Part shown: in pieces, positions 59,360-63,111 of the stretch | How positions within the stretch are numbered: position 1 is the stretch's first letter | Layout of the letters: each line of letters opens with the position of its first letter | Virus record (IMG/VR): IMGVR_UViG_3300025853_009406 | Coordinates: 1-64,000 of that record | Strand: one strand, 5' to 3' | From: a virus | Length of the DNA: 64,000 nucleotides | Notes under the pieces: generated by a model | Told to the model about the DNA's origin: nothing | Seen by the model: the letters and a program-made list of their open reading frames with translations, nothing else | Database searches by the model: none | Position numbers and translations under genes: made by a program

Positions 59360-59509
59360 GTAGGTCTTTTCATGCACGCCACTTGCTCTTTAGAGAAGCA
59401 AGAAACTCATATTAGGGTCATATGACTCCACCACACATTTTTGAGAGAAATGAGAAACTCCAGGGGTCAATGACCATCCCGACCAGGATTTTTATAGACT
59501 CTCCATGTC
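59360..59509. repeat. Non-coding gap with imperfect direct repeats
   Basis: No gene over 20 codons seen. On the minus strand two copies of about 50 bases share GTCAT(A)TGACCC then GAGTTTCT..TTCTCT.AA. Each copy has a small palindrome (GGTCATATGAC type). A start for the glycan transcript is not obvious here. Confidence 0.4.
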
Positions 59510-62200: not shown

Positions 62201-62229
62201 ATATTACACCAGTTCTTGGATATTGTCAA
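62201..62229 (-). promoter_or_regulatory. Sigma70-like promoter for tRNA-Gly/Ala
   Basis: TTGACA (62224-62229), 17-base spacer, TAATAT (62201-62206, 4 of 6), 68 bases before tRNA-Gly and overlapping the HNH stop. Confidence 0.5.
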
Positions 62230-62696
62230 GTCCAAAGGTTATGGTCATATTCCCAGTGGCAATTTGGACATAATGGCATTATGTTTTCCTTTGAGTTTAT
62301 AACACTAATCATAACTTCTTCACTAAAAGAAGATATTGGTTTTATGTGAGCAATTTCTATATGTTTATTATATCCACATTTAACACATTCGGTAAATCCA
62401 AGTTTTTTTCCAAATGCTCTTGCTCGTGTTCTTACCAAAGCAAATGCTGAGGACTTGTGATGTTTTTCATATATTGCTTCTTTAAGGGTCATATCTTTTA
62501 CTTCTCTATCTTTTAACCATATCAAATAGTGTTCTTTACAACGAGCACGATTTGCTGTTATTGCTTTTCCACAATCAATACATTTATGCTCTGGTTTTCT
62601 TTTAGGAACTTTTTTATTATTATAAGAAGCAGCACAACTTCTTCCACAAAATTTTGGATTTTTTGTTTCTACTTTACAAAACAAGCACTTATTCAT
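62226..62696 (-). CDS. HNH endonuclease
   Basis: 156 residues. Two N-terminal Cys pairs (CLFCKVETK, CGRSCAASY; CIDCGK) look like small zinc fingers. The C-terminal half is an HNH nuclease: CVKCGYNKHIEIAHIKPIS, then N in SKENIMPLCPNCH and the final H in WEYDHN. Free-standing HNH genes are homing elements that cut a target and spread themselves or a nearby intron. It lies 50 bases beyond the intron-split tRNA-Arg, with its own late box. Confidence 0.85.
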   Translation of the reverse strand: MNKCLFCKVETKNPKFCGRSCAASYNNKKVPKRKPEHKCIDCGKAITANRARCKEHYLIWLKDREVKDMTLKEAIYEKHHKSSAFALVRTRARAFGKKLGFTECVKCGYNKHIEIAHIKPISSFSEEVMISVINSKENIMPLCPNCHWEYDHNLWT

Positions 62697-62700
62697 AATG

Positions 62701-62739
62701 GAACCTTAAAGTTATTTTTATTTATAAACCTTAAGGTTC
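62701..62739. promoter_or_regulatory. Inverted repeat enclosing a late promoter
   Basis: GAACCTTAA (62701-62709) and TTAAGGTTC (62731-62739) form a 9-bp inverted repeat with a 21-base loop containing TATAAATA on the minus strand (62719-62726), 23 bases before the HNH gene. Confidence 0.5.
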
Positions 62740-62745
62740 AAAAAA

Positions 62746-63028
62746 CGTCTCAGGAGGGACTCGAACCCCCGACCAACTGCTTAGCTTACCACTACGGATT
62801 TCCCCGCCATTTCTGTTTGTGGTCTGGACTTTCTCTTTACCATATCCTAAAAGGACTTAGGCACTTCCCGTCAAGTCTCTACACCTTCATCTTACGATGC
62901 TTGGCTCGGGATTATCATAGTCTTAAGACTTTAGAGTTCCCCGAATTTGAGAAGTTACATTTATAAAGTTTCCCTTATAAAGCTCCTTTGTTAAAGGCAG
63001 ATGCTCTTTCCAACTGAGCTACTGAGAC
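62746..63028 (-). tRNA. tRNA-Arg (UCU) interrupted by a group I intron
   Basis: Exon 1 is 62994-63028 (35 nt: acceptor GTCTCAG, D-arm, 5' anticodon stem and CTT), exon 2 is 62746-62784 (39 nt: CTAA, GCAG, T-arm GGGGG-TTCGAGT-CCCTC, acceptor CTGAGAC). Joined, they give a 74-nt tRNA with loop CTTCTAA, anticodon UCU. Acceptor pairs 7 of 7. AGA is a common codon in AT-rich phage genes. Confidence 0.88.
62785..62993 (-). ncRNA. Group I intron in tRNA-Arg anticodon loop
   Basis: 209 nt between U34 and C35. It follows exon U and ends in G, as group I introns do. CUU at the exon end can pair with GAG of the guide (U.G at the splice site). Conserved blocks: CGGGGAAC (P), AATCCCGAGCCAAGC (Q), GTAGAGACTTGACGGG (R), AAGAGAAAGTCC (S); R GACTT pairs with S AAGTC to make P7. 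They match, from memory, the cyanobacterial tRNA-Leu(UAA) intron, where P7 is GACUC/GAGUC, a compensating change. No ORF inside. Confidence 0.88.
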
Positions 63029-63111
63029 AAGAGACCTCCCTGTTTGTGCATCGTTGAGAGGCATGGGAGGGGTGAGACTTATACGAAGTGTGGACCTTCG
63101 CTGCTCATAAG
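63029..63111 (-). ncRNA. Structured 5' leader of the tRNA-Arg transcript
   Basis: Two hairpins: 63078-63111 (CTTAT.CGAAG with CTTCG...ATAAG) and 63035-63070 (CCTCCC with GGGAGG, 24-base loop). They lie between the promoter and tRNA-Arg. No gene. The remaining bases to 63210 hold the promoter and nothing else seen. Confidence 0.4.

Follow-up and report, generated by a model that had tools for sequence, protein, structure and literature searches.

The split tRNA-Arg gene and its surroundings

The DNA analysed here, termed the window, comprises positions 1 to 64,000 of the 116.7-kb IMG/VR contig IMGVR_UViG_3300025853_009406, a partial viral genome. In this window, a tRNA-Arg(UCU) gene is interrupted by a group I intron and is followed by a free-standing gene encoding an HNH endonuclease, and we argue below that intron and nuclease probably form a pair of selfish elements that move together by collaborative homing. 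Since the record contains a T4-like gp23, it is the partial genome of a T4-like phage. We infer a cyanobacterial host because the nearest isolates are Synechococcus phages and because the window also contains a wcaG RNA motif (RF01761, 53.9 bits; 59368-59462, minus strand), which is located directly before a mannose-6-phosphate-isomerase-type cupin gene. The parts of the split gene are as follows.

62994..63028, minus strand: tRNA-Arg(UCU) 5′ exon, 35 nt, with the 3′ end CUGCCUU (last base U34); ARAGORN with introns allowed
62785..62993, minus strand: group I intron, 209 nt, lacking an open reading frame (ORF), with P1, P2 (GNRA cap), P3, P4, P6, P7, P9 and a terminal G; RF00028 and covariation
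62873..62877, minus strand: P7 5′ strand, GACUU; sequence, and P7 pairing retained at 99.5% in the 41 aligned introns
62827..62831, minus strand: P7 3′ strand, AAGUC; same evidence
62746..62784, minus strand: tRNA-Arg(UCU) 3′ exon, 39 nt, first base C35; ARAGORN and match to the intronless gene of phage S-SZBM1

A preliminary description of this locus had proposed a tRNA-Arg(UCU) gene split by a 209-nt group I intron at U34/C35, with the strand left unstated. When introns are allowed, ARAGORN places such a gene at the same coordinates, on the minus strand, as tRNA-Arg(tct), its 209-nt intron falling between gcctt and ctaag; with default settings, i.e. without introns, it does not call the gene. 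The joined exons (74 nt) fold into a tRNA-Arg(UCU) cloverleaf with the perfect 7-bp acceptor previously described, and the sole defect of this cloverleaf is a U27.U43 mismatch in the anticodon stem. An example of the empty site is found in Synechococcus phage S-SZBM1, whose intronless tRNA-Arg gene is identical to the joined exons in 73 of 74 bases. Because the intron splits the anticodon itself, the tRNA cannot decode until it is spliced, as had already been recognized. AGA represents 60% of Arg codons in 34 ORFs of the window, so that an unspliced tRNA-Arg(UCU) should be costly to the phage if the host tRNA is limiting. No other Arg tRNA was found in the record, which is partial.

Structure and covariation of the intron

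The Rfam model RF00028 matches positions 62803-63004 with 66.5 bits, which is above its gathering score of 50 (E-value 1.2e-14 over the window), and no further match to this model was found in the 116.7-kb record. The intron sits exactly between U34 and C35. Its P1 helix consists of 3 bp, CUU with GAG, in which U34.G forms the pair at the 5′ splice site, and its last base is G; the U.G splice pair and terminal G reported earlier are therefore both present. This U.G pair occurs in 39 of 40 phage introns that were compared. No long reading frame was found within the 209 nt.

To evaluate the structure, we aligned 41 distinct introns located in phage tRNA-Arg, tRNA-Leu, tRNA-Lys and tRNA-Ser genes. 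RNAalifold predicts 46 pairs in this alignment, 28 of them with two-sided changes. In a hand-drawn structure consisting of P1, P2, P3, P4, P6, P7 (a pseudoknot), part of P8 and P9, 94.0% of cells are paired and two-sided changes occur in 26 of the 46 pairs, with a covariation score of 0.407 compared to 0.149 ± 0.007 for shuffled partners and no more than 0.123 when partners are slid. The insert is a group I intron, and its core is supported by strong covariation. The small tRNA-type form hints at membership in subgroup IC3. It is also conceivable that the insertion is degenerate, with an intron that has lost splicing and a tRNA gene reduced to a pseudogene, but intact core helices with compensatory changes throughout, intact exons and the high use of AGA make this extremely improbable.

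The adjacent HNH gene and its leader

The preliminary description overlooked a neighbour of the split gene. The relevant features are the following.

62701..62739, minus strand: hairpin of 13 bp, -14.7 kcal/mol, between the tRNA and HNH genes; folding and relatives
62719..62726, minus strand: TATAAATA, T4-type late promoter motif, in the hairpin loop; conserved position in HNH relatives
62226..62696, minus strand: free-standing HNH endonuclease gene, 156 amino acids, zinc-finger-like N-terminus, triad H117-N138-H147; Pfam

The HNH gene starts 49 nt downstream of the split tRNA-Arg gene, and Pfam assigns its 156-residue product to HNH_2 (34.1 bits, cut-off 21) and HNH (22.6 bits, cut-off 21.4). 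H117, N138 and H147, as well as the zinc cysteines C104, C107, C143 and C146, are invariant in 22 HNH relatives. A comparison with solved structures by sequence yielded no useful match. In three relatives (L190, L193 and L198), the catalytic half is nearly identical to that of the window protein, while the zinc-finger-like N-termini differ, so these proteins look like mosaics, as if specificity modules had been swapped.

The 3′ arm of the hairpin spans AAGG, a ribosome-site-like sequence ahead of the ATG start codon of the HNH gene. Of 24 distinct HNH relatives, 22 have the sequence (T/C)ATAAATA at the equivalent position, and the hairpin, with changed stems, is retained in most relatives (the closer ones) and absent from the L190-L198 group. 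As TATAAATA occurs seven times in the window, which matches chance expectation, the argument for a late promoter depends on its conserved position. In T4, the ribosome site of early transcripts is masked by such a hairpin, and transcription from a late promoter within it yields a translatable message (PMC2988022). By analogy, the hairpin and late promoter would probably confine HNH expression to late infection.

Association of the intron with the HNH gene

We collected 30 viral contigs matching the intron-bearing tRNA-Arg pattern, and ARAGORN confirmed the intron in 29 of them. The HNH gene lies 45-55 nt downstream in 27 of these 29 contigs, but in none of 115 contigs with an intronless tRNA-Arg(UCU) gene; these contigs are not independent, and the 27 with intron and HNH gene collapse to about 13 distinct units, which weakens the comparison. 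Since both sets had been chosen by sequence, we also assembled a neutral sample of distinct loci, which were picked by a scan for an upstream abiF RNA motif (see below) and thus independently of intron and HNH gene. In this sample, the HNH gene is present at 6 of 7 loci with the intron versus 4 of 49 loci without it (Fisher p = 4e-5, uncorrected for kinship). The one intron-bearing exception (L494) has an HNH gene of a different kind, also 49 nt downstream. The free-standing HNH gene and the intron are co-inherited, as is the case for a collaborative homing pair. We rejected the stricter idea of a perfect linkage, because the HNH gene also occurs beside intronless tRNA-Arg genes.

Other nucleases are found in the corresponding slot. 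Directly behind the tRNA-Lys introns of L053 and L139 and the tRNA-Thr intron of L151 there are nuclease genes whose Pfam HNH scores are just under the cut-off, and L024 has another nuclease-like ORF for which Pfam gave no assignment.

Transfer and target preference

In two phages (L009 and L010), the unit of tRNA, intron and HNH gene, about 800 bases in length, differs by a single mismatch (99.9% identity), whereas their flanks are dissimilar (upstream, 41% coverage at 78% identity; downstream, 12% at 81%). Identity drops to roughly 40% in the first 100 or so bases past the HNH stop codon and fades 200-400 bases upstream of the tRNA. A second pair, L014 and L020, exhibits the same pattern at 98%. 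Thus, the whole tRNA-intron-HNH unit has been transferred between diverged phages.

If the unit undergoes a homing cycle, several states are expected, and all of them were observed. Both parts are present in the window; L023 and L027 have the intron with an HNH gene gutted by an internal deletion; L018 has the intron alone, in a flank that matches the empty site of phage S-SRM01; L166 and L216 have the HNH gene or a remnant of it without the intron; and S-SRM01 has neither part.

When loci were searched using only the HNH protein, the tRNA nearest to its relatives was Arg(UCU) at 27 of 37 distinct loci, compared to 8.7 expected. In one group of relatives the HNH gene is located 45-58 nt behind the tRNA, and in another 4-13 nt before it. 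The uninterrupted site CTGCCTTCTAAGCAG was found at none of 55 loci whose HNH protein has at least 80% identity, which would be expected if the enzyme cuts that site. The more general statement that every intronless genome with the HNH gene has a diverged site did not hold, as it is true only for the branch with at least 80-85% identity, while the more distant L183 (69%) has GGCCTTCTAAGCC.

A further observation concerns L179 and L180, in which the HNH gene is preceded, at a distance of 48 nt, by a tRNA-Arg-like gene whose anticodon loop contains a 45-nt insert in almost the same position as the intron. This insert is similar to the 3′ half of a different tRNA, and is perhaps a mis-repaired cut.

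Collaborative homing as the proposed mechanism

We propose that the ORF-less intron is mobilized at the tRNA-Arg anticodon by the HNH endonuclease encoded outside of it, i.e. by collaborative homing, and estimate a probability of about 77% for this reading. Within it, splicing, HNH cleavage and late timing are steps that we infer. Judging from its anatomy, the intron would self-splice from the tRNA precursor: P1 would pair C32-U33-U34 with GAG, guanosine would attack after U34, and exon joining would restore the UCU anticodon. The HNH enzyme, probably made late in infection through its hairpin and late promoter, would cleave tRNA-Arg(UCU) genes that lack the intron, at the anticodon or close to it. 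Repair of the break from the donor would copy the intron and HNH gene together, and the donor would be shielded, as its intron disrupts the recognition site.

Some observations weigh against this proposal. L018 carries the intron without an HNH gene. L166 and L169 are intronless, yet their HNH proteins are 92-93% identical to that of the window, although the tRNA-Arg genes there have a different anticodon stem. In L183, the gene adjoining the HNH gene (69% identity) is intronless and has a fairly similar site. Moreover, most tRNA-Leu introns of phages lack an obvious nuclease neighbour, so such a neighbour is not needed for an intron to persist. Finally, free-standing endonucleases can cut at a distance, so another position within the tRNA cluster could be the one that is actually cleaved.

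Some of these points would fit another explanation, in which the tRNA intron is immobile and mostly inherited vertically. The HNH gene would then be a homing gene in its own right, which came to lie beside tRNA-Arg through intronless homing and spreads when tRNA clusters are exchanged in the ordinary way, the intron playing no part in this. The adjacency of HNH relatives to intronless tRNA-Arg(UCU) genes, upstream or downstream, and the many tRNA-Leu introns without a nuclease are in keeping with this idea. However, it does not account well for the strong linkage in a sample ascertained by neither intron nor HNH gene, for the unrelated kinds of HNH gene that occupy the slot behind intron-bearing tRNAs (L494, L053, L139 and L151), or for the fact that the unit shared by L009 and L010 stops at the HNH stop codon. 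We therefore consider independent spread of the HNH gene unlikely, and prefer collaborative homing.

Relatives and origin of the intron

An exact 20-base core motif of the intron is present in at least 119 viral stretches, many of them in tRNA-Leu(UAA), tRNA-Arg(UCU), tRNA-Lys(UUU), tRNA-Ser(UGA) and other tRNA genes. To place the window intron among its relatives, we built a tree of 90 introns, none of them cyanobacterial, with IQ-TREE; its bootstrap had not fully settled. The window intron falls into a clade of phage tRNA-Arg introns with a support of 99/100. The enclosing clade of 53 rows (100/100) consists of phage introns except for four bacterial tRNA-Arg introns, from Aeromonas, Shewanella, Chitinophagaceae and Haematobacter, and the tRNA-Arg introns of Bacillota, Omnitrophota and Acidobacteriota lie outside it. 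Introns have changed tRNA isotype among phages, because the well-supported branches of the tree require the phage-Arg label to change three times or more. An Anabaena tRNA-Leu intron served as a yardstick in a quick tree only, where it had a long branch, and was not used as evidence.

These results also bear on the suggestion, made in the preliminary description, that the intron moved between host tRNA-Leu and phage tRNA-Arg. The tRNA-Leu(UAA) introns sit at the same U34/35 position, which phage tRNA-Leu introns share, and this speaks for a recent derivation from the cyanobacterial host tRNA-Leu(UAA) intron. The position of the window intron among phage tRNA introns, in both of the above clades, argues against it. 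In addition, no IMG/VR contig contains the cyanobacterial-type GACUC core, as judged with one 20-mer. The P7 helix had been read as carrying a compensating change relative to GACUC/GAGUC of the cyanobacterial tRNA-Leu intron: its GACUU/AAGUC pairing is indeed present, but it occurs in nearly all of the 41 phage introns, and therefore does not reflect a compensating change special to the window copy. Recent exchange with host tRNA-Leu is thus not supported and appears very improbable, whereas a very old link remains compatible with a tree lacking cyanobacterial introns. The HNH gene offers a likelier route of intron movement.

We noticed further introns during this analysis. Bacterial tRNA-Arg(UCU) introns at the same position occur in Bacillota, Omnitrophota, Gammaproteobacteria, Acidobacteriota and others (L350-L437), and many of them are ORF-less and 190-340 nt long. 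The tRNA-Arg(UCU) gene of another phage (L011, 2057-2737) contains a 606-nt intron with an internal HNH-like frame, which is the classical intron-encoded form. In a 735-kb huge phage genome (LR756501; L003, 1443-1733), there is an unannotated tRNA-Leu(UAA) gene with a 205-nt group I intron. Deep-sea phage KT997847 (L006) has two group I introns (1418-1598 and 2127-2307) beside capsid-annotated ORFs, which are probably one capsid gene in pieces. Approximately 1,266 plasmid records, mostly of conjugative enterobacterial plasmids (hits H56-H75), contain a stretch that resembles the intron core at about 74%.

An abiF RNA next to the tRNA gene

On the other side of the split gene lies an additional RNA.

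63034..63070, minus strand: abiF RNA motif (RF03085), orphan, 5 nt upstream of tRNA-Arg; 53.8 bits, cut-off 37

No Abi_2 toxin gene was found in the record. A second instance of the RNA is located at 3031-3067 of L004. Of 105 distinct viral loci with abiF motifs, 81 have a tRNA starting 3-9 nt downstream of the motif, and this tRNA is Arg(UCU) in 63 of the 81, with 44 different sequences; by comparison, only 8 of the 505 other tRNAs at those abiF loci are Arg(UCU). An abiF small RNA was previously reported in cyanophage S-CREM1 (PMC9964418), and in C. difficile the abiF RNA is an antitoxin to AbiF (PMC12373285). Among the papers that we searched, none reported a link between abiF RNA and tRNA-Arg.

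The function of the abiF RNA is probably separate from that of the intron-HNH unit, and the RNA is possibly an antitoxin mimic freed by tRNA processing. A broader idea, which we regard as doubtful, is that the abiF RNA and tRNA-Arg(UCU) constitute an anti-defence cassette, with the RNA acting as a decoy or antitoxin against a host RNase of the AbiF type (a Cas13 ancestor) and the tRNA replacing the one which this RNase destroys. If so, the pair would be valuable and widely kept, and would thus be a favoured docking site for selfish elements consisting of an intron plus a nuclease.

Phage contigs in our collection also contain permuted tmRNA genes, namely in L494 (12312-12571; cyano_tmRNA, 121.6 bits), L177 (3491-3740) and L053 (3451-3721). 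The tmRNA gene of L177 is directly behind the HNH gene.

Comparison with known systems

The demonstrated case of collaborative homing is the nuclease F-CphI with the psbA group I intron of cyanophage S-PM2 (PMC6083498), and psbA was the only worked case that we found in the literature. As in that system, a free-standing nuclease gene adjoins an intron-bearing gene in a T4-like cyanophage, and the intron is expected to block self-cleavage. Here, however, the target is a tRNA anticodon rather than psbA, and the nuclease, whose cleavage is predicted, is a zinc-finger-like HNH protein and not of the Endo VII type. T4 SegB, a free-standing homing endonuclease in the tRNA cluster (PMC2988022, PMC13096335), similarly adjoins a phage tRNA-Arg gene and has a hairpin over its ribosome site and a predicted late promoter, but it is a GIY-YIG enzyme with no accompanying intron. 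A late promoter inside a hairpin also precedes the genes of I-TevI, MobE and other T4-type endonucleases (PMC2988022); for the HNH gene, this control is deduced purely from sequence conservation.

With respect to the intron, bacterial introns in tRNA-Leu(UAA), tRNA-Arg(CCU), tRNA-Ile(CAU) and tRNA-fMet genes are likewise small and ORF-less, and share the anticodon-loop location, short P1 and U.G splice pair. The window intron differs from them in occupying a phage tRNA-Arg(UCU) gene, in belonging to a separate clade, in its P7 helix and in its linked nuclease. The bacterial tRNA-Arg(UCU) introns at the same position are widespread and mostly fall outside its clade. Phage group I introns have been described mainly in protein genes (Hausner et al. 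2014, PMC3984707). The present locus shows a phage anticodon that is split by an intron with many relatives across phage tRNA isotypes, and provides a natural series of homing states, with intron and nuclease both present, either present or neither. A sister phage carries an unrelated HNH gene in the same slot. Collaborative homing is a known strategy of selfish elements, and its operation at a tRNA gene is the best explanation of this locus. The spread of mobile tRNA introns thus becomes testable with cultured cyanophages, for which S-SZBM1 would provide the empty target.
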